Below, in pieces: positions 8,999 to 39,840 of a stretch of 42,624 bases of DNA. The notes beneath the pieces were generated by a model, which worked only from the letters and a program-made list of their open reading frames with translations, searched no databases and was not told the DNA's origin. The DNA comes from Alphaproteobacteria bacterium. GTDB taxonomy: Bacteria; Pseudomonadota; Alphaproteobacteria; Rs-D84. The translations under genes were made by a program, and so were the position numbers. The stretch covers positions 1 through 42,624 of the forward strand of contig JAFGMU010000020.1 of NCBI GenBank assembly GCA_016927395.1. The letters are read 5' to 3'. Position 1 is the first letter of the stretch, and each line of letters begins with the position of its first letter.

Positions 8999-10027
8999 AT
9001 GATAGAAAAAAACTGGATGACTTTGATTAAGCCAAAAAAGCTGAATATCAAAATCGACGAAAATAACCCTAATATCGCTACACTGATTGCAGATCCACTT
9101 GAAAAAGGATTTGGTCGCACACTGGGCACTGCTTTGCGCCGTGTTTTGTTGTCTTCTTTGCAGGGATGCGCACCAATGTATGTAAAAATTGATGGTGTTC
9201 AACATGAATTTTCCAGCCTTGCTGGCGTTCGTGAAGATGTAACAGATATTATCTTGAATTTGAAGGGCGTTTATTTCAAAGCCCTGACCGAAGGTCAACA
9301 CAAAGCATACTTGAAAGTAAAAGGTCCAGCAGTTGTAACAGCTGCCATGATTGAAACCACTGGTAGCATTGAAGTTATGAACAAAGATGTAGAAATATGC
9401 AATTTGGACAAAGGTGCAAGTTTGGATATGGAAATAACATTGGGCACAGGTCGTGGATATGTTCCTTCTAATGCTCATGCAGAAAATCTGCCTTTGGGTG
9501 TTATTCCTATGGACTCTATCTTTTCACCAATTTTGAATGTTGCTTTTGATGTTTCTGAAACTCGTGTTGGTCAATCAACTGACTTTGATAAATTGGAAAT
9601 GGTTGTAAAAACAAACGGCAGTATAACACCAGAAGATGCAATTGCATTTGCTGCTCGGATTTTGACAGACCAATTGGTTGTGTTTATCAACTTTGAAGAT
9701 CCTGCACAAATCAACGCAGTAAAAGAAGAAGAAAAAGCAAAAGATGCTTTGCCATTTGATCCAAAATTATTGAAACATGTTGACGAATTGGAATTGTCTG
9801 TTCGTGCAAACAATTGTCTGAAAAACGATAAAATCAACTGGTTGGGCGAATTAGTTCAGAAAACCGAAGCTGATATGTTGAAAACACCAAACTTTGGCCG
9901 CAAATCTTTGAATGAAATCAAAGTTCAATTAGAAGCCATGGGATTGGGATTGGGTATGGATGTTCCAGGTTGGCCACCAGAAAATATTTCTGAGTTGTCC
10001 AAGAAATACGAAGACCCATACAAATAA
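8999..10027 (+). CDS. rpoA: RNA polymerase alpha subunit
   Basis: Alpha dimerises to nucleate RNA polymerase assembly and uses its C-terminal domain to contact UP elements and activators. The 342-residue product has the assembly domain (R-T-L-G-T-A-L-R-R-V-L-L-S-S at residues 40-53), an acidic linker (K-E-E-E-K-A-K-D) and the C-terminal domain. The DNA-binding segment there is V-R-A-N-N-C-L-K, followed by L-K-T-P-N-F-G-R-K-S. Length is normal. Unlike in most bacteria, it has its own promoter and is separated from rpsK by galE; rplQ follows after a 121-base structured leader. Confidence 0.97.
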   Translation: MIEKNWMTLIKPKKLNIKIDENNPNIATLIADPLEKGFGRTLGTALRRVLLSSLQGCAPMYVKIDGVQHEFSSLAGVREDVTDIILNLKGVYFKALTEGQHKAYLKVKGPAVVTAAMIETTGSIEVMNKDVEICNLDKGASLDMEITLGTGRGYVPSNAHAENLPLGVIPMDSIFSPILNVAFDVSETRVGQSTDFDKLEMVVKTNGSITPEDAIAFAARILTDQLVVFINFEDPAQINAVKEEEKAKDALPFDPKLLKHVDELELSVRANNCLKNDKINWLGELVQKTEADMLKTPNFGRKSLNEIKVQLEAMGLGLGMDVPGWPPENISELSKKYEDPYK

Positions 10028-10037
10028 TAAATAAACC

Positions 10038-10124
10038 GTGATAACCCAAAAAATGGGTTATCACAAAACTTCATAATTCTGATTTTTTCAGGTTATGAAA
10101 TTGTCTTATCCCGTTTATTACGGG
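10038..10124 (+). promoter_or_regulatory. Three consecutive stem-loops between rpoA and rplQ
   Basis: Stem 1 is a perfect 11-bp pairing, GTGATAACCCA (10038-10048) with TGGGTTATCAC (10054-10064). Stem 2 pairs TTCATAA (10070-10076) with TTATGAA (10093-10099) and encloses an inner CTGA/TCAG stem. Stem 3 is CCCG (10110-10113) with CGGG (10121-10124), close to the CCCG-type modules before rplE and rplR. AAAAAGGAG, the rplQ Shine-Dalgarno, follows. None of the stems has a U-run. An autogenous or differential-expression role is inference. Confidence 0.6.
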
Positions 10125-10148
10125 CTGCAACGAAAAAGGAGTAACAGC

Positions 10149-10694
10149 ATGAGACATCAAAAACAAGGACGTAAGTTTAATCGTCACGCAAACGCTCGCA
10201 AGGCTTTGTTTGTTGGATTGGTAAAAAACTTGGTTGAAAGAGAACAGATTAAAACAACTTTGCCAAAAGCAAAAGATTTGCGCAGTGTTGTCGAAAAGCT
10301 GATTACCAAGGCAAAAGTTGATAATGTTGCAAATCGTCGTTTGGTTGCAAGCGAGCTGGATAATTCCAGTGCAACAACTGTAAAAAAATTATTTACAGTT
10401 TTGGGTCCACGTTATGCAAAACGCCCAGGTGGTTACACTCGCGTTATGAAAGCTGGTTTCCGTTATGGTGATGCTGCACCAATGGCAATTATCGAATTGG
10501 TTGAACGTGATGAAAACGCTAAAAAATCAACACCAGTAAAAACAGAAGAAACAAAATCTGAAAAAGCAGTGGCTGATAAAAAAGAAAAAACTGTAAAAAC
10601 ACCAGCAACAAAAGTTGCACGTGATACAGGTGCTGCAAAGGCTACAACAGCCAAGAAAGAAGTTTCTGTTAAACGTCGTGCAACAGGAAAATAA
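10149..10694 (+). CDS. rplQ: 50S ribosomal protein L17 with a long basic tail
   Basis: L17 is a large-subunit protein near the exit tunnel. The core is clear: [12 protein letters not shown] at the N-terminus, [15 protein letters not shown] near residues 27-41 and R-P-G-G-Y-T-R-V near residue 96. The product is 181 residues, whereas the E. coli protein has 127. The extra C-terminal part, about 60 residues, is Lys/Thr/Ala/Glu-rich and probably disordered; Alphaproteobacteria often carry such tails. The frame is open from 10095, but that start falls inside the leader hairpins, so the ATG at 10149 after AAAAAGGAG is used. Confidence 0.95.
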
Positions 10695-11403: not shown

Positions 11404-14154
11404 ATGAAAAAAATGGTCTTTTTTTCCATACTTACCTTTTGTTTAGTATTAAATGCACAGGCAGCTGTTCCTTCACAAAGAAGAAGTCAGACGGTTGTAT
11501 CATCTTCTGATACGGTTTCACAAACATCTGCACGTGCAGCCGCTATCAGAACTACTTCTGCTCGTTCTGCAACACCTTCTGTTTCAAACAGAACTACATC
11601 AGCCAGATCGGGTAGTGTACCAGTAACATCTCAAACTGTATCTGCACGTGCTGCAACAACACAAAAAGTGATAAATTCTGGAACAAAAATATCAGCAGCA
11701 AACAGAAATACAGTTGTTAACGAAGCATGTCAGCAAAAATATTTTGGCTGTATGGATTCTTTTTGCATGATTGAAAATACTAGTGGTGGTAGATGTTTAT
11801 GCAGTGATCGCAAAACCGAATTGGACAAGGTTTTGGCCCAAATTCAAAGCCTGGATGCACAAAGTTATAAAATGGCAACCGAAGGTGTTGAAAAAATAGA
11901 AATGGGTGCAAATGCTGATGCTGCTATCGCTGCTGCACAAAATTCTGAAAAAAGTATAACAGATGCTAATCAAAATACTCGTTCACGTACTTTGGACTTA
12001 AATTTATGGAATCAGACCGATGATAACAGCGAAGATATTTTTGCTGAAAAAGAAGTCAGCCCAATAGATGGAAAAACAGGTGATGATTTGTATAACTCGG
12101 TTAATCAAATCTGTATTTCGCAATTACCAGAATGCGCAAATGATATGTCTATGTTGCAGATGATGTATGCGCAAAATATAAAGTCAGATTGTGCTGCGTA
12201 TGAAAATGATTTAACAAAACAAAAAAATTCCAGTTCTACCAAATTGGCTGCTGCACAAAAAGCTTTGCGTGATGCGGCTTTGGATTCTTTGCGGACAGCG
12301 AATAAATATGACCTGGGACAATGTACAATAGAATTTAAAAAATGTATGGCAAATACTGCTGGTTGCAAAGATGATTTTACAGGTTGTGTTGGTATTGCTG
12401 CGGCTGAAAATGCAAAAAAATCCACCAGTTCAAAATCTTCTATGAAGATGGTTGATATCAAAGGATCAAGTACAAAAATTTCTGTTGCTGCATCGACTAT
12501 GGATGCGTTGGAATCAAAAAAGCCAATGTGCGACAATATTACAAATTCATGCGTTGCAGTCAAAGACCAGGTTTGGGATACATTCCTGCGCGAAGTTGCG
12601 CCAACTTTGAAAACAGCAGAATTATTGGCTGAATCTGATTTGCGTACAAATTGTATTTCAAATATTTCACAGTGCTTCCAAAAAGCGTGTAAAGATACAA
12701 TCGATCCAAATGATCCAGACGGTTCATATGATATGTGTTTATCACGTCCTGAAACTGTTCGTTCTTTGTGTAAAGTTCAAATTGATCCATGTGTATCAGC
12801 TGAACCTTTGATTATGGATTATGTTTATGCACGTTTATCTTCTATGCGCGTTGATTCATGTACAACCGAAGTAAAAGAATGTTTGCAAAGTGATGATAGA
12901 TGTGGATCTGATTATTCAAAATGTGTTGGTTTGGATACTGATACAATAATTCGTATGTGCCCATATGATAAATTAACAGGCTGTCAAAAAGTTTACAGCA
13001 GTACCAAAGTTGGCAATGATATTCGTGGTGAAGCAGTATATGAAGAATTATCCACAATGGTTCAAGGAATTATGTTAAATATAGATAATAGTTTCCAGTC
13101 TGTATGTCAAAAAGCATTAGATGAATCTATGATAAAAGTTTGTGGTAGTACAGATGATTGCAACGGGCTTACAGTGGATGATGGTCTGGGAAGTCGTTCA
13201 TTGGAATATAAAGTATGTCAGTACACAGGAAACATCAGCAATTTATCTATAAACTATAATTTGTGTCGTGCAGATGTATCACAAATAACAGATGGTGAAT
13301 TACGTTCAGATGTTCCATATGCTGGAATTTTGGATGGAAATATTTATTGGGAAAATATAGAAGTAAAAGACGATGGAACTTTGACAAATGTTGATGATTA
13401 TATAACTGCTTCTGATACAGAATTATCAGATACTGAAAAAAATAAAGTTGAAACAGAATTGTCAGCTTTGGAAAAAAATATTAATAGTGCAATAAAAACA
13501 GTTGAAGCCGACCCAACTGTTCAATATTGTATGACCGGACGTCAAGTTCAAGGTATGAATAATTTGAAAATTGGAAAGGAAGGGCAGGCACGTTTTCCAA
13601 AATTGACAGATCAAGTACGTTTAGTTATTGCAAATTCAGCTTTGAAAACAGTAAAAGCAAACTATTATAAAAAATATGATGAATTGTCCAAGAAAATTTT
13701 AGAAGATTACAAGGTAGTTGCTGATCGTGTCGATGCTTTGGAAAATCAGGACAAAAAAGATGCACATCGTGATGCAGCAAGAAAGGCATGTATAAGCATG
13801 GTTAATGTAAGTGTTATTTCTAATAATTCTTCGATTAATAATTCCAGAAGTTCACTAGAAAACACTCTTATAAGTTTGACAAACGGATGGGCAATGCCAT
13901 TCATGTCTGTAAACTCTACGAATGTAACATATGATGCTGATCAGATTTCAAAATTACAAATGGTAGGTTCAAAACAATACAGTTCTTTGAGAGAAAAACA
14001 AATGATAACATCTACATTTAATTGGGAAACATTGAATTGTCACAAATGCATACGTTCTCAAAGATGTACAAATGTTAAAAATCCATTATTTGGATCAAAA
14101 TATTGTAAGAGTTGGAGTGCCGAAACCGAGAGTTGTACAGATACACAATTCTAG
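11404..14154 (+). CDS. Secreted 916-residue protein with twin C-x6-C motifs
   Basis: I know no named family for this protein. A Sec signal peptide (about residues 1-20, ending A-Q-A-A) is followed by an Arg/Ser/Thr-rich stretch with repeated (T)-S-A-R units up to about residue 85. The Cys-rich body opens with C109, C116 and C121 (C-x6-C-x4-C). It holds two full quartets with spacing 6-6-6, C307/314/321/328 and C486/493/500/507, plus several isolated C-x6-C pairs. No transmembrane segment follows the signal peptide. The second half is Asp/Ser/Asn-rich and helical, and the C-terminus has another Cys cluster. The product at 39831-42581 is a distant paralogue of the same length: the N-terminal Cys block, the V-W-D-x-F-L-R-E segment and several Cys pairs align. 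The gene has its own promoter and terminator. An extracytoplasmic, disulfide-stabilised role is inference. Confidence 0.9.
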   Translation: MKKMVFFSILTFCLVLNAQAAVPSQRRSQTVVSSSDTVSQTSARAAAIRTTSARSATPSVSNRTTSARSGSVPVTSQTVSARAATTQKVINSGTKISAANRNTVVNEACQQKYFGCMDSFCMIENTSGGRCLCSDRKTELDKVLAQIQSLDAQSYKMATEGVEKIEMGANADAAIAAAQNSEKSITDANQNTRSRTLDLNLWNQTDDNSEDIFAEKEVSPIDGKTGDDLYNSVNQICISQLPECANDMSMLQMMYAQNIKSDCAAYENDLTKQKNSSSTKLAAAQKALRDAALDSLRTANKYDLGQCTIEFKKCMANTAGCKDDFTGCVGIAAAENAKKSTSSKSSMKMVDIKGSSTKISVAASTMDALESKKPMCDNITNSCVAVKDQVWDTFLREVAPTLKTAELLAESDLRTNCISNISQCFQKACKDTIDPNDPDGSYDMCLSRPETVRSLCKVQIDPCVSAEPLIMDYVYARLSSMRVDSCTTEVKECLQSDDRCGSDYSKCVGLDTDTIIRMCPYDKLTGCQKVYSSTKVGNDIRGEAVYEELSTMVQGIMLNIDNSFQSVCQKALDESMIKVCGSTDDCNGLTVDDGLGSRSLEYKVCQYTGNISNLSINYNLCRADVSQITDGELRSDVPYAGILDGNIYWENIEVKDDGTLTNVDDYITASDTELSDTEKNKVETELSALEKNINSAIKTVEADPTVQYCMTGRQVQGMNNLKIGKEGQARFPKLTDQVRLVIANSALKTVKANYYKKYDELSKKILEDYKVVADRVDALENQDKKDAHRDAARKACISMVNVSVISNNSSINNSRSSLENTLISLTNGWAMPFMSVNSTNVTYDADQISKLQMVGSKQYSSLREKQMITSTFNWETLNCHKCIRSQRCTNVKNPLFGSKYCKSWSAETESCTDTQF

Positions 14155-14369: not shown

Positions 14370-15302
14370 TTAGATATCTGTCAGGTTATTAAATATTTTT
14401 ACTCCGCGCGATTCCCATTCTTCGATTCGGTTTTTCAAATCCATAATATTTTTTTCACCCAAATATATTGCAGGTAAAGCATTATGTTTTTCAGCCGCTT
14501 TTATTGCTTCGATAACAGGTGATATTTTTTGTTTACCAGATGCAAACCAACTTTCTTCATCTGCAATCCAAAAATCCGAATCAGTATGCTCGGCGATTGC
14601 CATGTTTTTTGCTATTACAATATTGCCGTCCATTACCGGTTCGTAATTTTTACCTTTCAGGTATTTTAATAATTCTGATTCGTGAAAGATATTTGTTTGT
14701 CCTGAAACATTATTATTAAATTCTGAAAAATTTATTTCTTTGAATACAGGAACAGAAGATTTATTTGTATCATCAAAGTTTTCCGTAGCCATAAAATCGA
14801 AACTGTCAGGTAACGGCAAACTAGGTTCTTGTGAATGTTGTAAATTCGGTTCGTCTTTTTTTATATTTATATCTTTTATATCAAAAGTCGATTCGGGTCT
14901 GAAATTTATTTTTTGTCGCACGCGTAAAAATGGGCCTTTTAATTCCGTTGGAATTCTGTCTGGCAGATCAACAATTTCTTCCTCTGGTTTTTTTTCTTCT
15001 TTCTCTTCTTTTTTTTCTACTTCTTTCTTCTTGAATAAATTTAATTCAAATAAAGGTTTCTTTGTTCTTATTATGATGGCAGTTGTCGCTAAGTACAAAG
15101 GCAGAGCAGAATACATTATCAAACCAAAAGTAAATCCAACAAATCCGTGTAACTTAGAATTTAATAATATTCGCCACTGATACAATGAAAATAAATCAAA
15201 ACCGAACAGAAAAATAAGAATGCAATAAAGTGCAGCTACGTAATAGATAGTCCAAATAACTGCAAGTTTGTTTGCTTTTAAGAATTCCAGAGTTTTTTTC
15301 AT
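14370..15302 (-). CDS. Two-span membrane protein with an unknown C-terminal domain
   Basis: I do not recognise the family. Two hydrophobic helices lie at about residues 14-36 and 52-77. A highly charged K/E stretch (about residues 88-110) and a long, probably disordered linker follow. The compact C-terminal domain (about residues 205-310) contains H-E-S-E-L-L-K-Y-L, D-F-W-I-A-D-E-E-S-W-F and A-I-Y-L-G-E-K-N. Topology suggests that the large C-terminal part is cytosolic. The start at 15302 lies only nine bases beyond a strong -10 box, and no Shine-Dalgarno is present, so the mRNA may be leaderless. It lies among genes for secreted Cys-rich proteins, divergent from the one at 15471; a link with them is only positional. 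Confidence 0.8.
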   Translation of the reverse strand: MKKTLEFLKANKLAVIWTIYYVAALYCILIFLFGFDLFSLYQWRILLNSKLHGFVGFTFGLIMYSALPLYLATTAIIIRTKKPLFELNLFKKKEVEKKEEKEEKKPEEEIVDLPDRIPTELKGPFLRVRQKINFRPESTFDIKDINIKKDEPNLQHSQEPSLPLPDSFDFMATENFDDTNKSSVPVFKEINFSEFNNNVSGQTNIFHESELLKYLKGKNYEPVMDGNIVIAKNMAIAEHTDSDFWIADEESWFASGKQKISPVIEAIKAAEKHNALPAIYLGEKNIMDLKNRIEEWESRGVKIFNNLTDI

Positions 15303-15470: not shown

Positions 15471-17453
15471 ATGCGCAATTTATTCAAGTCTTTTGGGCTT
15501 TCACTAACAGGAATAGGGGTTGTGTTTATGTTCGGTGCTGCTTCTGCAGCCGATACTGGTCGTGCATCTTATAATGTTGCTTCGGCCAATCGCGCAACAT
15601 TTTCTGGTCAGCAACGTATGCCGACAATGTCGATTTTACCTACAAATGCAACTGGAAATGTTACAACAAATACAAATACTGCTAATGCGATTAAATGTCC
15701 AGATGGTGGTGTTCAGACATCTGATTATACAATCGAAAATTGTATGAACGATGTTTTGTCCTGTGTTAATAATGGTGCTTTGCCAGGTGGATTGAATGAT
15801 TTGTTTAATCAGGATTTACGTAATTCAATTCTTAATGGAATGAATTTGTGTTCAGTCCAGGTTGATAAATGTTTAAGTGATGTTCGTAAAAATTGCCAAA
15901 ACGTTTATCGTACAACATCTGATTTTTGGTTGGACTTTAACTCCCGTAAAATTCAACCGGAATATTATTCATTTGTTTTGCGCAAGACAGGTTTGACACC
16001 TAACCAGGCAGAAAACACTTGCTGGTTGTTGGATAAAAATGTTTACGGTTCTTCTTTTGACGCTGTTTCTAACACAGGTGCAGTTACATCTGAATATAAT
16101 AAACAAATTGGTGCTTATAACAGTCAGGGTGGGGGTTCTTTGATAAAAGACTCACCACAAGGTGTCAGAGTTAATACAAACGGCAGTGTTGATGGTCAAC
16201 GCGGTCATTATGCACGTTGGGATGCTGCAACTGGCGAATGCTTGGTTCGTGTTGCCGCATATAATAAAAATTCACAAATTAAAAACAGCTGGTTGTTTGG
16301 TGCCGCAGGAAATGATCAGCCAGCAGAAGTTTGGAAAAATGCTGGCAGCAGCTTTACCTGTGGTAAGGATATTTTTGGGTTTGGCTTGATGACAAACACA
16401 AAAACCACAGCCGTTGTTGGTGTTGGTGGTGGAACATTAGTTGGTGCCGGTGTTGGTGCATTGGCTGGTCATGGCGAACGCAGGTTTGATTGTGATAATG
16501 CAACAAGCAGAAAAGCATTGTCTGATGAACTGCGTGACAATAGAAATAGTTTAAATACATTAAATAAGTATTTGAATAATGAATTTGAAAGTTTTGCAAA
16601 TGATACAATGTCTGAAAGACAGTGTGAATCTATTGTTAAATTGTACAATAATTATGAAAAGTTAAAATCTTTAAACCCGTCCGAAAATGATACAACTATT
16701 GTTTTGACCAAGGAAAATTTTAAATCAGAAGGTAGCGACTTTAATTATGATATTTATTATGCCGATAACGAAAGCACAGGAAAACCGTTGACTGATGTTA
16801 TTAATTCTGAATTGAAAGATAACGAAAAAACGGATTTAAAAAATAATTTAAAAGTCACTAAAATACGTAAAGAAGCTATCAAATATACATCTTTAATAAA
16901 CCAGAATTATTATAATGGTGTTTATTGCGAAGGTGGAAATTCTGAAGAATGTGTATCTGGTGGGGAAATTAAAACACAGATAGGTGATTTGTCAAAAATA
17001 TTTAGTGGATTGGGATCATTAGATAATATTGAAAAATCCAATATGTTGGCATCAACAGCAATCGGTGCCGGTGCTGGTGCAGCAGCAGGTGGTTTGGCAA
17101 CAGCAATCACAGCATTTGTTGAAAAGAACAACATTAACTGCCGCGTTGGTGATGGTTTGCAAAAAGTTGATTACGGCAAGTCATACAGCATAGGCTCTCT
17201 GAAAGATTTCTATGTAAAATGGAATCTGCGCTTGCCTGATACAATTATGCCAACAGCAACAGCGACTGATTGTGCATCTTGGACAAAGGCCTGTGAAACA
17301 TTAAAAGATTTGAACCAGTGCACAATTGCTCAGGTTAACTATAAACCGGTGAATTCAATGAATACCACATTGGTTAATACAGCTTGCGCAGTATCGGGCA
17401 GCACTTGCACAGTTAACTATCCAGTTGCAGTGTCAAACAGTGCATGTCAATAA
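15471..17453 (+). CDS. Secreted Cys-rich protein with two glycine-zipper segments
   Basis: No named family recognised. The 660-residue product begins with a signal peptide (about residues 1-27, ending A-A-S-A-A). A Cys-rich region follows, including the C-x6-C pair C127/C134 followed by C142. At about residues 298-309 the pattern F-T-C-G-K-D-I-F-G-F leads into a glycine zipper (V-V-G-V-G-G-G-T-L-V-G-A-G-V-G). A second zipper lies near residues 527-548 (I-G-A-G-A-G-A-A-A-G-G). The block F-x-C-x-x-[DN]-x-F-G followed by a zipper also occurs in the minus-strand gene ending at 20253, so the two are homologous there. The C-terminal 60 residues carry more Cys. Membrane insertion or oligomerisation through the zippers is inference. 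It has its own promoter and terminator and is convergent with the four-gene operon. Confidence 0.9.
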   Translation: MRNLFKSFGLSLTGIGVVFMFGAASAADTGRASYNVASANRATFSGQQRMPTMSILPTNATGNVTTNTNTANAIKCPDGGVQTSDYTIENCMNDVLSCVNNGALPGGLNDLFNQDLRNSILNGMNLCSVQVDKCLSDVRKNCQNVYRTTSDFWLDFNSRKIQPEYYSFVLRKTGLTPNQAENTCWLLDKNVYGSSFDAVSNTGAVTSEYNKQIGAYNSQGGGSLIKDSPQGVRVNTNGSVDGQRGHYARWDAATGECLVRVAAYNKNSQIKNSWLFGAAGNDQPAEVWKNAGSSFTCGKDIFGFGLMTNTKTTAVVGVGGGTLVGAGVGALAGHGERRFDCDNATSRKALSDELRDNRNSLNTLNKYLNNEFESFANDTMSERQCESIVKLYNNYEKLKSLNPSENDTTIVLTKENFKSEGSDFNYDIYYADNESTGKPLTDVINSELKDNEKTDLKNNLKVTKIRKEAIKYTSLINQNYYNGVYCEGGNSEECVSGGEIKTQIGDLSKIFSGLGSLDNIEKSNMLASTAIGAGAGAAAGGLATAITAFVEKNNINCRVGDGLQKVDYGKSYSIGSLKDFYVKWNLRLPDTIMPTATATDCASWTKACETLKDLNQCTIAQVNYKPVNSMNTTLVNTACAVSGSTCTVNYPVAVSNSACQ

Positions 17454-17954: not shown

Positions 17955-19667
17955 TTATCCCTGTGGGCAAGATCCAGTATTAATTTCAACGGTTACGTTG
18001 CGGCAAGATGAATTTGAAAGAGTTTTTGAATCGCACTTACTACTTCCATTACCAACGGTTTGTATATTTAATTCTGAAATTCCATTATTGGTCAGTATTT
18101 TCTTAACGCTTTCTGCACGTTTCAAACTCAATACATCGTTTGTTTCCTTGGAACCGGTTTTGTCAGTATTACCAGAAACTAAATAGCAAACATCTGTTGA
18201 ACTTATATCTTTGATTCTGTCATTTAAAATAGTTTTATAATCATCTTTTACTTCAAATTCATTCGGAGCAAAACTGTTGGAAGTTAGAGTTATTTTTTCA
18301 ATTTGTACAATGTTTGTTTCTGTTTCTGAAACTGTATTTTTGGATACAACAGATTTAAACATAGAATTCAAATTGTTATTATTTAATGAATCAAAATTAG
18401 TTTTTTTAGATTCTTTTACTTGGCAAAATACACCATCAATTTCTTTTGGCGGATTGCATACGCATTTATTATTTTCAACCAAATCAAATCCAAGTGAACA
18501 TAAACATTTGTTATCGGTTGTTGCATAAATATGTTCATCATTTCCGCAGTCAACTGTTGGTTTATCAACACAACCGTTTTCTGTATAATTTTTATTTTCA
18601 TCATTGCAAACGCAATTTTCCCCGACCAATTTTGCGTCGGTACCACAGTCTGGTTTTGTAACTTCTGATTTATTGTCGATTTCAGTTTGAATTTCCTTTG
18701 CGGCCGCAGCAATTTTTGCATATTTTGCGTTTATTTCATCGGAACTTTCCTGGGCAGAATTTTTATTTATCAACATATTTCCAGCAATTCCACCAACAAT
18801 TCCAGCACCTGCGACAAGTGCACCTGTTGTTACTTTTTTGGATGCCGCGGCTTTTTGGGCATACCAAGCATCGTCGTCACCAGCCGCACCAGTCAATGAT
18901 GCAGATACACTGGCAAATGCACCAGATTTTCTTTCTGCTTGGTCATATTCATATAGCCCAGTAGTTGATTTATCTAATATTGTTTCAGATTCAATTCCCG
19001 GCGCCATACCCAAAGCGGTTTTTGTATTTTTTAATTCATCTGCCAAGGTTTTGTATTCAGTATACATTGGCATTAAAACATTTCCGCCGGGCAGGGTAAT
19101 TGATTTTTCCCCGCCATTTATATTTTGACCCTGACCATAGTCACATTTGAAAGTTGCCAGATATGCCTTCATATCAGTTTCGGCATCTTTGTCAGATTTT
19201 TGTTCTGATAATCCTTGGGCCAATTGACTGCCCCCAATTCCGGTTGCACCAATAGATGCAGCCCCCAATAATTTATTTTCCGTAGAATTTTCTTTATCTC
19301 TCATCGCCTGGGCATTTGCCTCGAGCTCTGAAACTTTATCACTAGACACCGCATGTTCTTGTGAACTATTTGTTTTTTCGTTTATTTCTTGCTTTTGTTT
19401 TTCTTGATATTTTTGTTCCTCTTCTTTTTCTTGTGAACTTAACTGTTTGTTAAACTTCTTTTTAGCTGTTCTGATTGTTGATTTCTTATCATCATTTACT
19501 TGATTTGTTGCCAGTGTTACAAGATTTGTATTTTTTGTAATTTTACTATTCAATATATTTGTTGCATCTTTGATGTCAGATTCATATTTTGCCACAGCGT
19601 CTTCAAAAGAATCCGCAAAAGCAGTAACAGGAAGTAAAAATAAAAATACAAAAATCAGTTTCTTCAT
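17955..19667 (-). CDS. Secreted protein with Cys repeats and a C-terminal OmpA-like domain
   Basis: This is the last gene of the four-gene minus-strand operon. The 570-residue product has a signal peptide (M-K-K-L-I-F to about residue 18, ending A-F-A) and a K/E/Q-rich coiled-coil-like region (about residues 40-125). A glycine zipper (L-V-A-G-A-G-I-V-G-G-I-A-G) lies near residue 295. Three or four short EGF-like Cys repeats (C-x-C pairs) lie around residues 340-425. An OmpA-family domain ends the protein: the pattern T-D-K-T-G-S-x5-N-D-x-L-S-x-x-R-A is the peptidoglycan-binding core, with the conserved Arg present. The frame is open to a GTG at 19679, but the ATG at 19667 gives a normal signal peptide. 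It probably tethers the operon's products to the cell wall (inference). Confidence 0.85.
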   Translation of the reverse strand: MKKLIFVFLFLLPVTAFADSFEDAVAKYESDIKDATNILNSKITKNTNLVTLATNQVNDDKKSTIRTAKKKFNKQLSSQEKEEEQKYQEKQKQEINEKTNSSQEHAVSSDKVSELEANAQAMRDKENSTENKLLGAASIGATGIGGSQLAQGLSEQKSDKDAETDMKAYLATFKCDYGQGQNINGGEKSITLPGGNVLMPMYTEYKTLADELKNTKTALGMAPGIESETILDKSTTGLYEYDQAERKSGAFASVSASLTGAAGDDDAWYAQKAAASKKVTTGALVAGAGIVGGIAGNMLINKNSAQESSDEINAKYAKIAAAAKEIQTEIDNKSEVTKPDCGTDAKLVGENCVCNDENKNYTENGCVDKPTVDCGNDEHIYATTDNKCLCSLGFDLVENNKCVCNPPKEIDGVFCQVKESKKTNFDSLNNNNLNSMFKSVVSKNTVSETETNIVQIEKITLTSNSFAPNEFEVKDDYKTILNDRIKDISSTDVCYLVSGNTDKTGSKETNDVLSLKRAESVKKILTNNGISELNIQTVGNGSSKCDSKTLSNSSCRNVTVEINTGSCPQG

Positions 19668-19681
19668 TATTCTTGTCACTT

Positions 19682-20251
19682 TTAAATTCCAAGTTTTCTT
19701 TCAAATTCAGATTTTGCAATTTGAACAGATGTGTTAAATTCTTCTAATGCTTGCTTTTCTGAATCTGTTGCTTGTTGTGTTGCCTCTGCTAGTTTTTTCT
19801 TGTCAGATTTGAACATATTCTTAATACCGCTACCGAAGCTTTCTTTTGAATTACTATTTTTTTCAATAGTTGTTTCTTTGTCTTCTGTTTTTTTATCTAA
19901 TAATTCCGAAGATGTTGTTTTTTCAGTTTTATCAATAGAAATATTTTTTTTATCAATGGAATCAGGAATAGTTATTGAGACAGTTTTGTTTTCTTTTGTT
20001 TTATTTTCTTCTGCGATAAGTAAGCAATGATTTTTTAAGTCTGTCATCATTTCACTATTATTAATACCACTTTTAGTTATGCAACCTATTGAATTTTCGG
20101 TTGTTGAACATTTTATATTTGGACTTTCATCAATACAGTATTTCTCACCAATTCGAATAGCGTCATCAAAACTTTTACTAAATGCACCAGCGCCAGTTGA
20201 AATCATAAATACTGGTATAAAAATAATAAAGATCGTTAATATTTTTTTCAT
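19682..20251 (-). CDS. Secreted 189-residue protein, third gene of the operon
   Basis: No family recognised. A signal peptide (about residues 1-23, ending G-A-G-A) precedes a short Cys-containing region (C-x10-C-x8-C near residues 39-60). A long, charged, probably disordered or coiled Lys/Glu/Ser/Thr-rich tail follows to the C-terminus. The ATG at 20251 starts one base after the stop codon of the upstream gene, with GGAAAG as Shine-Dalgarno. An upstream ATG at 20263 would overlap that gene. The next gene begins 14 bases after this stop. Confidence 0.8.
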   Translation of the reverse strand: MKKILTIFIIFIPVFMISTGAGAFSKSFDDAIRIGEKYCIDESPNIKCSTTENSIGCITKSGINNSEMMTDLKNHCLLIAEENKTKENKTVSITIPDSIDKKNISIDKTEKTTSSELLDKKTEDKETTIEKNSNSKESFGSGIKNMFKSDKKKLAEATQQATDSEKQALEEFNTSVQIAKSEFERKLGI

Positions 20252-20252
20252 T

Positions 20253-21947
20253 TTACTTTCCACCTGATACCATCGAAGAGGTTATTCTAGTTGGAGCTTC
20301 TGGTTTTGGTACTGAAATACTAGTTACTTCAATCTGTTTCATTTCTTTTAAACCACTGCTAGCTTCTGTTGTTTTTTGTCTGGATGCATTCAGATTATTT
20401 TCAGCATTTTTTATATCCGTGCTATTACCACTTTTTAATGCTGAATTATAGTTATCCCTTGCACTTGCATACTCTTTTTCAGCACCTTCCATTTTTTCAA
20501 ATGCTTCGGCATTACCCTTGTTTATCTCAGAATTTTGCTTAAATACTTCATCTCTGTTTGTTTCAAGTTTAATTTCTGATGAATTATTTTTTTGCTCTTT
20601 GTTAACACTATTGTTTATTGTATCAGTTTTTCCTGTCGACGAAATATCAGATTCATTTGTTAAATCATTATCTTTGGCATCAGGATTTTTTTGACTCGTT
20701 GAACCTTCTTCCTTCTTTGCGGCGTCAACTGCTTTTTCTGCTTTTTGTGTATCCATTGCACGACTGATAGCACCAGATGAAATCGAACCTGCAGCAACAC
20801 CCAAACCAGCACCCAAAATCGCAGAAGATGCAGCAGTTTGTTCGCGTGTCAGTCGATACGCGTTTTCTTTGTATGTTGTCAAATCAACACCAAACCAATT
20901 TTGATCGCAATCAAAAGCATCACCAGCATATAATTTCTTTGACGCCATAGGATTTTTTGAATTATTTGCAAATAAATTTACTGTGAATACACAGTCTAAA
21001 CTGCGTTCATCAAACATTGCACCCAATGTTTTACATTGTTCTGCCATTTTTTCACGAAGCTCGTACAGACGTGCTTCGTCTTTGGTAACCTGGGCAGTTG
21101 CATTTGCACGTAATGTTCCAAATACCTGTTGAATTCTGCTGGTCATACCATTGTCAAAATTTTGGCAACCGCTAGCAACACTGGAGCAGGAGGCAATTGC
21201 AGCATCTGATACCGACTTTGAAATACATTGCGAAAAATTGGTTCCACATTTTTTTATTATACAACTGTTATAACTATTTCCACATTCGGTTGTTTTTGTA
21301 TAACCAGATATTTTCGAGTTATAATCACGGTCGGCCTTGATTTCTTTTGCAAACGCTGTAAATTCTTCGCCAGAACAATTTGTATCTGCACGGCATAAAT
21401 TTATTTTATTTCCCCAATCAGTATCACCGTCACCAGCACATTTTGAAAAATCGTTATCGCATTTTTGTCGCATGCAGTCGCGTAAATTTGTATCACATGA
21501 ATTTTTACCAGATGCCATCGCCGCGGCAGCGGTTTTTTTAGCAGTAGATATATTAGCAGCCGAATCCAGTGCAGCACGTTGATCCATTATCATCTGTTCG
21601 CGTGAATTGGCAACAGTGTCAGTTGAATTTGCAACTGTACCTGACAGCACAGCTTCGAATTGGGAAGATTTGTTATCAATTATATTACTGGTATCTTCTG
21701 TGACAGTTTCTTCTGGTGCTGGTTCTAAATCATTTGTTTGATTTTCATTTGAAACCACGGGCTGGGTTGCAGAAGAAATTCTGGCTGCATTGTTTGCACG
21801 TGGTGCCGCACGACTGGCCACAGCGCCCCTTTGAACAACCTGTGCTGCAAAAGATTCAGTAACTGCAGAAACAGCAAAGCAAGAAATCAAACAGATTCCA
21901 ATAATCCGATTTAATTTTAATGTAAAGATTGAATCATAAATCTTCAT
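20253..21947 (-). CDS. Secreted protein with two twin C-x6-C quartets and a glycine zipper
   Basis: No named family. The 564-residue product has a long signal peptide (about 34 residues, ending S-F-A-A) and a basic, Arg/Ala-rich mature N-terminus (V-V-Q-R-G-A-V-A-S-R-A-A-P-R). Two quartets with spacing 6-4-6 follow: C151/158/163/170 and C222/229/234/241, each with an aromatic three residues before the last Cys. Then comes F-D-C-D-Q-N-W-F-G-V, leading into a glycine zipper (I-L-G-A-G-L-G-V-A-A-G) near residue 375. The last third is charged and coiled-coil-like. The middle block matches the 15471 product. The start overlaps the upstream stop as ATGA, so translation is probably coupled. Confidence 0.88.
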   Translation of the reverse strand: MKIYDSIFTLKLNRIIGICLISCFAVSAVTESFAAQVVQRGAVASRAAPRANNAARISSATQPVVSNENQTNDLEPAPEETVTEDTSNIIDNKSSQFEAVLSGTVANSTDTVANSREQMIMDQRAALDSAANISTAKKTAAAAMASGKNSCDTNLRDCMRQKCDNDFSKCAGDGDTDWGNKINLCRADTNCSGEEFTAFAKEIKADRDYNSKISGYTKTTECGNSYNSCIIKKCGTNFSQCISKSVSDAAIASCSSVASGCQNFDNGMTSRIQQVFGTLRANATAQVTKDEARLYELREKMAEQCKTLGAMFDERSLDCVFTVNLFANNSKNPMASKKLYAGDAFDCDQNWFGVDLTTYKENAYRLTREQTAASSAILGAGLGVAAGSISSGAISRAMDTQKAEKAVDAAKKEEGSTSQKNPDAKDNDLTNESDISSTGKTDTINNSVNKEQKNNSSEIKLETNRDEVFKQNSEINKGNAEAFEKMEGAEKEYASARDNYNSALKSGNSTDIKNAENNLNASRQKTTEASSGLKEMKQIEVTSISVPKPEAPTRITSSMVSGGK

Positions 21948-22825
21948 TTTTGTTTATAATTTCCACAAGCTGTATCGTAAAAACCACATAACAAAGTAGC
22001 CATTGATTTTTCGGATTCATACCCGCTGGCGCATTTGTTTTTCATATTTATTTGGCAGACGGTTTTTATACAGGTTTCGCGTGCTTGGTTGTTTGTGCAT
22101 GCATCATTTACCATTTTTAAACCAGATTCGCGTTTTGATTTATAAGAATTAACAATTTTTGTAACCAAGGCTTTTTGATTAGCAATGGCAGAGTCACGTG
22201 ACTTCATCGACATTGAACGAACTTCGTTTATAGAGTTATCGCATCCACTGGCCTGAGCGGCGCATGCAGAAAAGAATTTATTAAAATCAGCATCGTCTTT
22301 GCACCCTGAAAAATCAGATCTACATGAATTTTCATCAGATAAGCATGTCATTATTTGTGCATTACAATCATCCGTACTTTTTGATTTTTTTAACGAAGAT
22401 GTCAAAGATTTTGTTTCAGCAGTTATTCCAGCGGCCTTGCAAGATTGTTCAATCAACTTATCATAAACTTTTGAAACGTCATCAGCGGTGCATCCCGAAA
22501 TCTTTTTAATACATTCACCAGTTGCCCACGCATAGCGCATACCTGGGTCTGTTGGCGCGGATTTTAAATCTGACTCTGATATGGTGTTTTTTGAAGATGT
22601 ACCAACGGATATGCTTTTCATACTTGTTATTTCAGCAGAACCAGCAGAAGATGTACCGCACAACTGACATCTACTGGCAGGATTTAATCCAATATTTAAG
22701 CTGCACGCAGAATCCAGGCATTTTGTAAGGTCATAATTAGAGCACGAAGCAACAGCGCCTGCTGCGAAAAAATCAGCAAGTATTAAATAGGTAGCAACTG
22801 AAAATAATTTGATAATGGACTTCAT
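21944..22825 (-). CDS. Secreted Cys-rich protein, first gene of the operon
   Basis: No named family. The 293-residue product has a signal peptide (about residues 1-27, ending G-A-V-A-S). It is dense in Cys: an N-terminal cluster, a C-x6-C pair (E-C-I-K-K-I-S-G-C), then the full quartet C154/161/168/175 with spacing 6-6-6. A further C-x6-C pair (A-A-Q-A-S-G between the two Cys) follows at once, and a C-terminal cluster ends the protein. It leads an operon of four secreted products with overlapping or nearly touching genes. The promoter upstream resembles that of the paralogous locus at 42581. Confidence 0.88.
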   Translation of the reverse strand: MKSIIKLFSVATYLILADFFAAGAVASCSNYDLTKCLDSACSLNIGLNPASRCQLCGTSSAGSAEITSMKSISVGTSSKNTISESDLKSAPTDPGMRYAWATGECIKKISGCTADDVSKVYDKLIEQSCKAAGITAETKSLTSSLKKSKSTDDCNAQIMTCLSDENSCRSDFSGCKDDADFNKFFSACAAQASGCDNSINEVRSMSMKSRDSAIANQKALVTKIVNSYKSKRESGLKMVNDACTNNQARETCIKTVCQINMKNKCASGYESEKSMATLLCGFYDTACGNYKQK

Positions 22826-22989: not shown

Positions 22990-23454
22990 ATGTCAGGTGA
23001 AGATTTTTATAGAAAAGAAAACATGAAAAAAACCGAAATAAAACAGTCGGGTAGTCTATATGTAAATCAAATAAAAATCGAAAATGAAAAAGATAATAAT
23101 CTAAAAAAAGCAATAACTGTCTTTTTTATAGTTAGTTTTGCTATTTCTATAACTATTAATATTTGGCAATCATTTGCAAATGATGAAGCATATAAGATTA
23201 CAATGGATTCGTTGGAAAGATTAAAAAAAGAAACAGAAAAATCAAGATTAAAAGACCAACAATTGAAACGCCAGTCTGATAAAGAATTAGAACAGTACAA
23301 AAAAATAAATAATTTAGAAAAAATAATAGAATATAAAGATTCTTTGAATCTTATAACTATCAGAAAATTGCAAGAAACCATAAAAAAATTCAATTTTGAA
23401 AAAGCTAAATTAGAAGCGGATTTTAAAAAAGATTATGCCAGTTATACTAGATAA
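22990..23454 (+). CDS. Single-span membrane protein with a coiled-coil domain
   Basis: No family recognised. The 154-residue product has a polar N-terminus of about 38 residues. One hydrophobic helix lies at about residues 40-58 (A-I-T-V-F-F-I-V-S-F-A-I-S-I-T-I). A long Lys/Glu/Leu-rich coiled coil follows from about residue 75 to the end. Such bitopic coiled-coil proteins often act as scaffolds. It is divergent from the Cys-rich operon, 164 bases away, and its end overlaps the convergent antiporter gene by 13 bases. An upstream TGATATTCT might be an extended -10 box. Confidence 0.75.
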   Translation: MSGEDFYRKENMKKTEIKQSGSLYVNQIKIENEKDNNLKKAITVFFIVSFAISITINIWQSFANDEAYKITMDSLERLKKETEKSRLKDQQLKRQSDKELEQYKKINNLEKIIEYKDSLNLITIRKLQETIKKFNFEKAKLEADFKKDYASYTR

Positions 23455-24494: not shown

Positions 24495-27400
24495 ATGAAA
24501 TTTATAAAAATATTTATATTTGCTTGTTTTTTTGCCCCCAGTGCTTTGTTTGCGGCCACTGATTTCGAAGTTGCATCACAATTGTTGGCAGCTGCAAAAA
24601 ATGCGGACATTCAACAGGTCCAGGCATTGGTCAATAATGGTGCAAATATAAATTATGTTGATAACACTGGTTTGTCAGTTGTTTGTACAGCGCTGATGAA
24701 TAATGACGTTCGTGCAGCACAAATATTACAAATGTATGGCGCTGATGCTTCAAAGTGTGACCAGCAGATTAAAAGATATAATCAAAAATTACCAAAAGAA
24801 TCATCTGGTGGATTATTCAGCGGGCTATCGTCTGCCCAAAGCATAGCATTAGCGGCGGCGGGGGCCGCCGTTGTTGTTGGCGGTCTTTTATTTTTAACAG
24901 ATGCGCTGGATGCTGGTAATACAAATACTTCTTCGACAAGTACTGGTACAGATCGTCCAGGAACGGATACTGGAAATACTACTACTGCGACTGCGGCGTT
25001 TACTTTGCCATACGGTCCGGCCATGCCAAACGCAACTTCTGAAACTGCGAATTATACAACAAATTTGAATTATTACAGCCCAACAACAGATGGTTTAATA
25101 AAAGATAATTTTGCTTTGCTGACAAATACATATGCTCAGAATTATTTGTTGATGATGCATGGGTATTCGCCGTTGGCACGTGGGTATTTGGGAATGCGTA
25201 CTTTGCGTGATACAACTACGCGTGCCCCAATAAGCTTGGCGGGAAATAATCTGGGTTCCGAATCAGTACTAGGGGCCAGACCAGTTAATGTTGCACTGAT
25301 AACTGCAAATGGTGTTAATGCACTTTCAAAACCCGCTGGTGATATTTCCGAAACAACATCATCTTTGGATGATAAATTATTATTATGGACCACAACCAAT
25401 GTTAATGGAACGGCCGCCAGTGGTGCCAGCAATGATATGATTTCCAGTAAATATTATAATAATAAAATAACACGTGGCGCTGATAATAATTCTGCAATTG
25501 ATGATTCAACATCCGAAGATGCAACTTCGTTGTCGTTGTTTGATTTGGGTGGATATGGAACAGTTGTAAACAATAATTTTTCATCAGATATTGATGATTT
25601 GCTGGCAAAAATTGTTGGTGGAAAAGATTCTGGTTATACATCTGCCGACTATATGGGATTTATGCCAAATGGTCAGATGACAATTTTCAGAACCGGCAGT
25701 GGGGTTGGTATGAAGACTGCATCTGGCGCTGTTTCTGGAAATTATACTGACGAAGGCGACGGTGTATGGGGAACGGGTGATACATTGACTTTATACGGTC
25801 ATACATTGACAATAACAGTTGATGCAACTGGTTTGGGTTTTGTTGCAACCGATGGTACAAACACGTATAACGGTTATCGCGGAACAGATGGTTTGTTGTA
25901 TGTTGACAGCGACAGCAGTGGTTCTGTTGACCAGGCATATAATATCGAAACTGGTGGTAATTTGACACTTTCCAAGGAAGCAGGTGCAACAGATTATTTA
26001 AATTACAAGGCACTTTATAATGCAGGTTTGCTGTGGGCTGCTGGTGATTTGGCAAACGGTCGTTCAAAACCAGATGTTATTGCAAATGCAGATATAATTG
26101 AACCATTGCATGCAGCAGATGCAAAAACAATTTCTGATATTTTATCAGTGTCAGCAACAAGCCGAGAAACATCTTTTATTAACCTGATAAATCAATACTA
26201 TAATGTTGATACAACTGATGGTACATCTGGTGGGGATTCTTTGCCGGGAACATCTGCAACAAACTTTTTCGGTGGTTTGGGTTCTTCATTTTCACCAATT
26301 GTAATTTTTTCAACCGGCGCTTCTGTGACGGACAGCAGTTATTCGGGCAGTACCAAGGAAGCAACTTTTGAAAACGCGGCACCTTTGATTTACAGCAGCA
26401 TAGAACATTTGTTTATGTCAGTTGTTGCTGTGGGATTAACTGGTACTGGAACAAATGGTACTACCAGTGTTTCAGGATACTCTCCGTCTGGAAAAATTGC
26501 ACTGAGTCAGTGGCATGATACAACAACAAATACTTATTATAAAGCACGCACATGTGGAATTGGCGGCAGTGGGGCAAATGGAATTGATCCATGGTGTTTC
26601 GCAGCGGCGGGGGTTACAGATGAATTGGCTGTTGCCAGTATGGCTGGTGCAGTTGGTGCTGTTAAATCTGCGTTTGATTATCTGAATAATAAACAATTGT
26701 TTGCTTTGTTGGCATTAACATCGGATGGTCCATATTTGGGAACAAATTCGTCTGGAACTGCGTTTACGGCGACTACTTTGGCATCTTATTTACAGGGTAT
26801 GTATCAAATGCCAGCCGAGTATGATTATAAATGGCAATACGGTGGTGAAAACTATTTGGACGTTTTCAAAGAAGTTTTTGGATATGGAATGATAAATTTG
26901 GAACGTGCAACAAAACCTGGTAGCAAAATTTATTATTATGATGGTACAAATATTGTTTCAACCAGCGGGGGTGCATATTGGCGTGCTGCTTCGAATACAA
27001 TATTCAGATCTTCGATTATATTCAATCCGCGCACGGCATATATCAGTGCACCTTTCTACGACGTTTTGGAAAGCGTGGATGGAACTTTATCTTTGCCACG
27101 TATTTGGGAAAATGAATTTACTTTAGGAATATCTGATGAACGTGCTTTATATATGGGTGATGTTCTGGGTGAATTCCAGGTCAGTACAGATAAAATCCCA
27201 GAATATAAAGTTGGAAATATGACTTTGCAAATGGCGGTTTCACAGAAATCATATGATGACAACATGGGTGGACTGGATAATATGCAATTCGGATACAGTG
27301 TTGGAAATATGGAATTTGCAGCCGGATACCAGGGACACTTTACAGATGGAATGTCCAGATTTGATTCAACATCTAATCCGATTTTATCTTTGGCTTCGAA

Positions 27401-28151
27401 TGCGGTATCAAGTGGTGCAAAATATAAATCTGGAAACTGGTATTTTGGTACACGTGCATTTTCAGGAAATATTACGGATGAATCATTGTTGCAAAATGAT
27501 CCGACTGTTTCAAATCAGTACCAACCTGCAACACTGGGATTAATTCAGGGCGCAGAGTCAATAGTAACATGGGGTAATGATAAATTTGCAATTTCTTCAT
27601 CAATCGGTACCGCCCATGAAAGCAATACTATACTGGGCGCACAAACTGGTGGATTATTGGATATGGGGCAGGGTGATACAGTTTATCTGGATAATGTTTT
27701 GTCATACTCACCAAAACAAGATGTAAAAATTTCTTTGCGTTCAACATTTGCAAATACAACTACAAAACCAACTGGTGAATATATTTTAGGAATGTCAGAC
27801 ATAAAATCGAATGCTTTTTCTGTTGATGCACAGATGGGAAGTTTTTCTTTTGCTGTTGCAATGCCTTTGGCAATAACATCAGGAAATATGAAATACGCAT
27901 ATGCCGATTATGAAAGTGTTGAAAATGCCGATGGTAATTTTGATTTGGTTGTAAAAGATACACACATCGAAGATTTGGCATTATCTCCAGAAAAACGTGA
28001 AGTTCGTTTGTCAGGTGCATATCGTGTTAAATTGGGTGCATTCACAGATGGTGCTTTTGGTATGATTTATCGTATTAACCCAAATAATATCAGCGAATTT
28101 GGAAATGAATCGATATTTATGATGAAATTCACGCATAAGTTGGGAATATAA
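24495..28151 (+). CDS. 1218-residue ankyrin / degenerate subtilase / beta-barrel surface protein
   Basis: A signal peptide (residues 1-20, ending L-F-A-A) is followed by two ankyrin-type repeats (about residues 25-86), with V-N-N-G-A-N-I-N-Y-V-D-N-T-G-L as the clearest. A second hydrophobic helix lies at 115-135. The region from about 260 to 830 has the layout of subtilisin-type (S8) autotransporter passengers. The usual V-A-V-I-D-T-G at the catalytic Asp reads V-A-L-I-T-A-N-G (residues 266-273), and no H-G-T-H is present. At the Ser site only V-A-S-M-A-G-A-V-G-A remains (Ser715). The G-Y-G-M-I-N-L-E-R-A segment that usually closes S8 passengers is retained. The last 340 residues or so have alternating beta strands like an outer-membrane barrel, ending K-L-G-I rather than in an aromatic residue. 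It is probably a non-proteolytic surface protein; the S8 relation is my reading of motifs only. Confidence 0.75.
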   Translation: MKFIKIFIFACFFAPSALFAATDFEVASQLLAAAKNADIQQVQALVNNGANINYVDNTGLSVVCTALMNNDVRAAQILQMYGADASKCDQQIKRYNQKLPKESSGGLFSGLSSAQSIALAAAGAAVVVGGLLFLTDALDAGNTNTSSTSTGTDRPGTDTGNTTTATAAFTLPYGPAMPNATSETANYTTNLNYYSPTTDGLIKDNFALLTNTYAQNYLLMMHGYSPLARGYLGMRTLRDTTTRAPISLAGNNLGSESVLGARPVNVALITANGVNALSKPAGDISETTSSLDDKLLLWTTTNVNGTAASGASNDMISSKYYNNKITRGADNNSAIDDSTSEDATSLSLFDLGGYGTVVNNNFSSDIDDLLAKIVGGKDSGYTSADYMGFMPNGQMTIFRTGSGVGMKTASGAVSGNYTDEGDGVWGTGDTLTLYGHTLTITVDATGLGFVATDGTNTYNGYRGTDGLLYVDSDSSGSVDQAYNIETGGNLTLSKEAGATDYLNYKALYNAGLLWAAGDLANGRSKPDVIANADIIEPLHAADAKTISDILSVSATSRETSFINLINQYYNVDTTDGTSGGDSLPGTSATNFFGGLGSSFSPIVIFSTGASVTDSSYSGSTKEATFENAAPLIYSSIEHLFMSVVAVGLTGTGTNGTTSVSGYSPSGKIALSQWHDTTTNTYYKARTCGIGGSGANGIDPWCFAAAGVTDELAVASMAGAVGAVKSAFDYLNNKQLFALLALTSDGPYLGTNSSGTAFTATTLASYLQGMYQMPAEYDYKWQYGGENYLDVFKEVFGYGMINLERATKPGSKIYYYDGTNIVSTSGGAYWRAASNTIFRSSIIFNPRTAYISAPFYDVLESVDGTLSLPRIWENEFTLGISDERALYMGDVLGEFQVSTDKIPEYKVGNMTLQMAVSQKSYDDNMGGLDNMQFGYSVGNMEFAAGYQGHFTDGMSRFDSTSNPILSLASNAVSSGAKYKSGNWYFGTRAFSGNITDESLLQNDPTVSNQYQPATLGLIQGAESIVTWGNDKFAISSSIGTAHESNTILGAQTGGLLDMGQGDTVYLDNVLSYSPKQDVKISLRSTFANTTTKPTGEYILGMSDIKSNAFSVDAQMGSFSFAVAMPLAITSGNMKYAYADYESVENADGNFDLVVKDTHIEDLALSPEKREVRLSGAYRVKLGAFTDGAFGMIYRINPNNISEFGNESIFMMKFTHKLGI

Positions 28152-39811: not shown

Positions 39812-39840
39812 ATTCTATCAAATTTTCAGATTAATCGCAA
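39812..39840 (-). promoter_or_regulatory. Promoter of the 39051-39797 gene with a GANTC site
   Basis: On the minus strand, TTGCGA (39840-39835) and TAGAAT (39817-39812) are 17 bases apart; the -35 box overlaps the stop codon of the upstream gene. TGATAGAAT is also an extended -10. GAATC (39815-39811) overlaps the -10 box, as at rpoA. Confidence 0.5.

Follow-up and report, generated by a model that had tools for sequence, protein, structure and literature searches.

What do the tightly packed genes of this locus encode: one structure of the cell envelope, or a set of separate secreted proteins that happen to be neighbours? The window, a stretch of 42,624 nucleotides, is contig 27 of a genome of 779 kb that is 92% complete. 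An earlier note, made from the letters alone, had described four overlapping or nearly touching minus-strand genes here (A to D, Table 1), all with signal peptides, and had proposed that their products form an envelope complex tied to the cell wall, perhaps an appendage of the surface, an adhesin or a device for export. The comparison with relatives described below presents a conserved, family-restricted module of secreted proteins predicted to be rich in disulfides, together with a predicted OmpA anchor.

Table 1. Genes, domains and residues of the locus, numbered from the first nucleotide of the window.
Feature	Position	Strand	Description
Gene A	21944-22825	-	293 aa; secreted, all-helical, 20 conserved Cys
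Gene B	20253-21947	-	564 aa; secreted; twin-CX6C repeats, small C-x-WFG domain, Gly-zipper helix, variable C-terminal tail
B residues 151-261	21165-21497	-	12 of the 15 conserved Cys; two C-x6-C-x4-C-x6-C units and further pairs
B Cys305	21033-21035	-	candidate unpaired or intermolecular Cys; conserved 23/23
B Gly-zipper helix	20751-20846	-	about residues 368-399; Gly379 and Gly383 invariant in alignment
Gene C	19682-20263	-	193 aa; charged, secreted; lineage-specific insert separating B and D
Gene D	17955-19679	-	574 aa; secreted; two Gly-zippers flanking conserved core, EGF-like Cys-rich stretch, C-terminal OmpA
D Cys179	19143-19145	-	in LATFKCDYG; only conserved Cys of the D core
OmpA domain of D	18024-18272	-	residues 470-552; PF00691
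Terminator-like hairpin	17579-17560	-	just 3' of D (6 such sites in region against 3.0 ± 1.6 expected)
Gene E	15471-17453	+	660 aa; Cys-rich, secreted, two Gly-zippers; conserved neighbour
Gene F	11404-14154	+	916 aa; secreted, 39 Cys; CX6C repeat type as in A and B
Gene T	14370-15302	-	310 aa; predicted inner-membrane protein; within kept block
Gene U	22990-23454	+	154 aa; single N-terminal TM helix, charged rest; divergent from A

The DNA relatives of B that carry a name are bins from gut metagenomes, assigned to Alphaproteobacteria, Rickettsiales or Pseudomonadota, and relatives in the order sample have genomes of about 0.5-1.1 Mb. The genome appears to fit the uncultured gut order Rs-D84, in the family of Candidatus Enterousia. 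Rs-D84 and the candidate genus Enterousia are described as reduced, partner-dependent gut bacteria with genomes below about 1.1 Mb, which lack standard transporters for sugars, amino acids or peptides and miss most biosynthesis, and which are thought to feed off partner cells via unknown contacts (PMC12306168).

The layout of the four genes is reproduced by the open reading frames. A and B overlap in an ATGA, with A ending at 21944 and B starting at 21947. If C and D begin at their MKK codons (20251 and 19667, respectively), B and C are separated by 1 base and C and D by 14 bases, as the earlier note had it; with the upstream GTG starts chosen by the gene-finding tool, B and C overlap by 11 bases and C and D lie 2 bases apart. 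By inspection, all four products (4/4) carry N-terminal signal peptides. They contain 20 (A), 17 (B, 15 of them beyond the signal peptide), 4 (C) and 15 (D) cysteines. The block also extends beyond D to a plus-strand gene that had been overlooked, the conserved, Cys-rich, glycine-zipper gene E.

The idea of a complex had been made to depend on the genes staying together in related genomes and on their products not each belonging to an unrelated known family. Neither condition refutes the idea: in the relatives, A and B are found side by side, and matches to known families are limited to the OmpA and Ig-like domains. In 83 of 84 loci, the gene immediately downstream of A, on its strand, is B, with a median gap of 6.5 bases, and E lies near A in most loci. 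The position of D is looser. Among the 67 unmasked loci with more than 6 kb of downstream sequence, 45 have a D core or OmpA after B, three have OmpA joined to the C-terminus of B, and 19 have neither, rates that are biased by the many D-less loci from one purposely sampled Enterousia subclade. Most of the searched genomes without D beside B encode D-core paralogues elsewhere. C, in turn, has no counterpart in the loci of 24 relatives, which makes A-B(-D)-E the unit, and not the four genes as first drawn; its core is the A-B pair, and of the original grouping the linkage of A, B and often D is what stands.

The three fusions come from three genera. In these loci (L027, L036 and L040) no separate D stands beside B, and B itself carries a C-terminal PF00691 domain (E values of 2.5e-6, 3e-6 and 2.9e-9, respectively). 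Gene fusion of this kind is a usual sign of two products acting in one assembly. It thus suggests, short of proof, that the products of B and D do so.

The surroundings of the module are conserved to different degrees. E, F, T and the gene for a large surface protein, K (24495-28151), surround it in its own genus and in several Enterousia, while U is a slot that relatives keep without keeping its sequence. In Enterousia, a conserved Cys comes after the TM helix of the protein in this slot, and some genomes show a lipobox-like sequence. K, encoded on the plus strand, is a secreted protein of 1218 aa with N-terminal ankyrin repeats, a degenerate subtilase-like stretch seen by eye and an autotransporter-like C-terminus whose last residues are FTHKLGI; it stays near A-B in many relatives. 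At 8999-10694, rpoA and rplQ close the ribosomal protein operon and the island of surface proteins begins directly past them, an arrangement seen in L020 and in the genus of the window.

The taxonomic spread of the module is narrow and, within its limits, dense. A has strong matches in 120 of the 124 genomes sampled from its own family, the four others including G043, where 72 kb are masked; E is found in 118 of the 124, and B in 56 of 60 genomes. Searched against 289 genomes of the class, the B profile matches family members only, and A gives two matches in 399 genomes of the phylum, both of them family members. In the sampled remainder of class and phylum, neither A nor B was found; G063, from a different family, is the single genome beyond the family with a clear match to A. 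The module is thus present in nearly every genome of one family and scarcely beyond it. Long masked stretches of N in G043:C5 (L137-L140) and G126:C3 (L103) imitate giant open frames and conceal A or B; a 24,626-aa frame containing E in G043 is such an artefact, and G043 and L103 (G126) were left out of the analysis for their masking.

A repeat of cysteines is common to A, B and the neighbouring family F. C-x6-C is the commonest of the consecutive Cys intervals in A (29%), the B core (34%) and F (28%), and makes up 19% in E; in shuffled sequences its share is 3-5% overall (A 5%, B 3%, F 3%). Profile comparisons with hhalign link all three proteins (A-B, E 1.6e-6; A-F, E 1.4e-9; B-F, E 6.3e-8). 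Each of the 20 Cys columns of A is conserved in 21-24 of 24 relatives, while all 15 Cys columns of the B core are near-invariant and exactly 15 Cys occur in 68 of 83 sequences. Of 30 genomes of the order, 27, this one among them, encode a DsbA-like protein of the Thioredoxin_4 type. The large secreted CX6C proteins of the F and G family (11404-14154 and 39831-42581 in the window; L126 503-5182) have N-terminal linkers rich in Ser, Thr, Ala and Arg. Genes of this type stand in tandem copies on another contig of the genome, and three consecutive ones lie beside A-B in L039.

An odd number of cysteines leaves one without a partner. Cys319 and Cys347 of B align with the pair Cys257 and Cys297 of E, in a match that is weak (hhalign probability 27%), and Cys305 has no counterpart, which makes Cys305 the odd one. 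Of 47 sequences of the D core, 43 contain a single Cys, and the same holds for four more paralogues encoded elsewhere. An intermolecular disulfide between Cys305 of B and Cys179 of D is therefore possible, on the evidence of these alignments. Cys305 is also conserved in loci where B has no D next to it, which makes a bond between two B molecules or a free thiol equally possible.

Beyond its cysteines, B combines a conserved core with a variable end. The tail that follows the glycine zipper ranges from 9 to 743 aa, at a median identity of about 28% against 55% for the core, and in some relatives carries EGF-like or other Cys-rich domains. This pattern fits surface exposure, and relaxed constraint would look alike; the tail is possibly exposed. 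In one subclade, the tail is formed by a Cys-rich domain, which occurs as stand-alone small secreted proteins too (L097 B 769-900 and 945-1075; L098, L099; L028 136-597; L081 2543-2974). B and E share a module of C-x-WFG plus zipper, with the weak profile match mentioned above (E 6.6e-4). An RMPTM-like motif soon after the signal peptide, near the mature N-terminus, is present in 45 of 92 B and 40 of 49 E sequences and in none of A.

D provides the predicted peptidoglycan anchor. Its OmpA domain matches PF00691 with E 2.9e-14 and 53.6 bits, above the cut-off of 27.2, and the glycine zippers of B and D, noticed earlier together with OmpA and the Cys-rich stretch that precedes it, are conserved in the alignments. 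PF00691 is found in 10 of 11 D relatives, at E values up to 0.01. In the OmpA family, the Asp and Arg of the motif TD..G / LS..RA bind diaminopimelate; in D this motif is intact, with Asp in 9/10 and Arg in 10/10 D relatives. D shares this full OmpA domain, with both ligand-binding residues, with anchors of the Pal, YiaD and PA1041 types, and a YiaD-like zipper lies upstream of it. It differs from them in its one-Cys conserved core, which matched no Pfam family, in its signal peptide (MKKLIFVFLFLLPVTAFADS), in which inspection finds no lipobox of the kind that Pal carries, and in its scores, all of which fall far below the cut-offs: 43.4 of 125.35 bits for Pal (TIGR02802), 46.6 of 175 for the YiaD glycine-zipper/OmpA lipoprotein (NF053611) and 35.7 of 250 for the PA1041 equivalog. 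An N-terminal CarboxypepD_reg-like (Ig-like) domain is present in 7 of 11 D relatives and absent from the D of the window. Its best PDB matches are SusC homologues; the D relatives share this domain with SusC/TonB receptors, while no TonB receptor barrel was matched.

OmpA is the sole named domain in a Pfam/NCBIfam scan of A to D. No Pfam family scores above its cut-off for A, B or E, and none of the three matches a solved structure; PDB profile searches with alignments of A, B, E and F returned chance matches only, and Foldseek searches with models of A and B against PDB, and of A against BFVD, gave nothing below E 1. Homologues of B show Pfam matches to OmpA in three tails and a TNFR-like match in one. 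The AlphaFold2 model of A is helical (pLDDT 84.8), with a low pTM of 0.43; that of B has a pLDDT of 68.1, near 90 in the helices of 150-307, and a low pTM of 0.34. An analogy can be drawn to the twin-CX9C/CX3C proteins (CHCHD, small Tims), which have Cys pairs at a fixed spacing, helices such as those predicted for A and B and the hairpin locking expected of them. A and B differ in a modal spacing of six rather than nine, many repeats in each protein, bacterial origin and Sec export, and no sequence or fold match places them among the CHCH proteins. In a literature search, neither a twin CX6C motif nor an operon like this one came up. A and B probably represent a previously undescribed type of protein, one with no Pfam or PDB relative.

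Could these products simply be separate housekeeping or stress proteins of the periplasm and outer membrane, co-transcribed and forming no complex, with D as another OmpA-type wall linker? Glycine-zipper OmpA proteins are common stabilisers of the envelope, further OmpA-domain matches exist in the genome (G000:C10, G000:C2), and the loci where B has no D beside it agree with such a view. The near-invariable adjacency of A and B, the fusions of OmpA to B and the CX6C repeat common to A and B argue against it, and we consider it unlikely, though with a real chance of being right. The preferred reading, in which the Rs-D84 family builds one envelope complex from A, B and D, with E and perhaps F and U, has in our view about an even chance. 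It retains the peptidoglycan-tied complex of the earlier note for A, B and D, on the strength of their adjacency, the fusion and the Asp/Arg motif, and drops C. The loci without D beside B, the low pTM values and the weak B-E match speak against it, and glycine zippers and OmpA domains occur also in proteins that form no such complex.

Two further explanations place the function in a larger machine. Neither family scans nor inspection found an ATPase, secretin or pilin gene in the window, as first reported; for the whole genome that statement does not hold, as a secretin and an ATPase are encoded on other contigs. Across the order, a secretin and a PilB/VirB11-type ATPase are each found in 29 of 30 genomes and VirB10 in 28 of 30, and in this genome TcpQ adjoins the secretin and a weak PilO match adjoins the ATPase. 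The products might thus be accessory envelope parts of type IV pilus-like or VirB-type machinery encoded elsewhere. The R64/TCP-type type IVb pilus and VirB-type type IV secretion systems are envelope machines too, and the same genomes encode them. They are, however, order-wide, whereas A and B are almost limited to one family, and none of the eight secretin/ATPase loci with gene maps contains A, B, D or E, so A-B is not assigned to these machines, and a role of this kind is quite improbable. R64/TCP-like pilus genes and VirB10/VirB11 genes were seen at L113, L114, L117, L119 and L120 and on G000:C17, C44, C16 and C1; the published description of Rs-D84 mentions type IV pili solely for another lineage (PMC12306168). 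Still less probable, and very unlikely in our estimate, is that the module exports or displays K or the Cys-rich F family. In many loci, K and F do lie no more than about 10 kb from A-B, but this proximity is not universal, A to E contain no ATPase or beta-barrel gene, and on inspection the autotransporter-like end of K may insert its own barrel.

If A, B, D and E do form one complex, its assembly can be pictured as follows. Sec would export the proteins, and a DsbA-type oxidase would join the paired C-x6-C cysteines in A and B, which would lock their helical hairpins by disulfides. The two would bind each other as an obligate pair, and the glycine-zipper helices of B, D and E would pack together in a membrane, with the outer membrane as the likeliest. 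An OmpA domain, either that of D or that fused to B, would tie the assembly to peptidoglycan, while the variable tail of B, together with the EGF-like and Ig-like segments of D, would point outward and contact a partner surface.

The role of the module is perhaps attachment to partner cells. In its boldest form, which we regard as doubtful, this is a family-wide surface machine, in which a rigid CX6C pair of A and B at or through the outer membrane, linked by Cys305-Cys179 and held by OmpA, would grip partner cells with the fast-changing tail of B. The tail would then be the organ with which the metabolically deficient Rs-D84 bacteria grip the cells from which they feed. The module offers named targets (A, B, D and E), a testable Cys pair and an imaging marker. 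Kept in nearly all genomes of a family although these were strongly reduced, a surface module of this kind makes a good candidate for part of the contact with partner cells.
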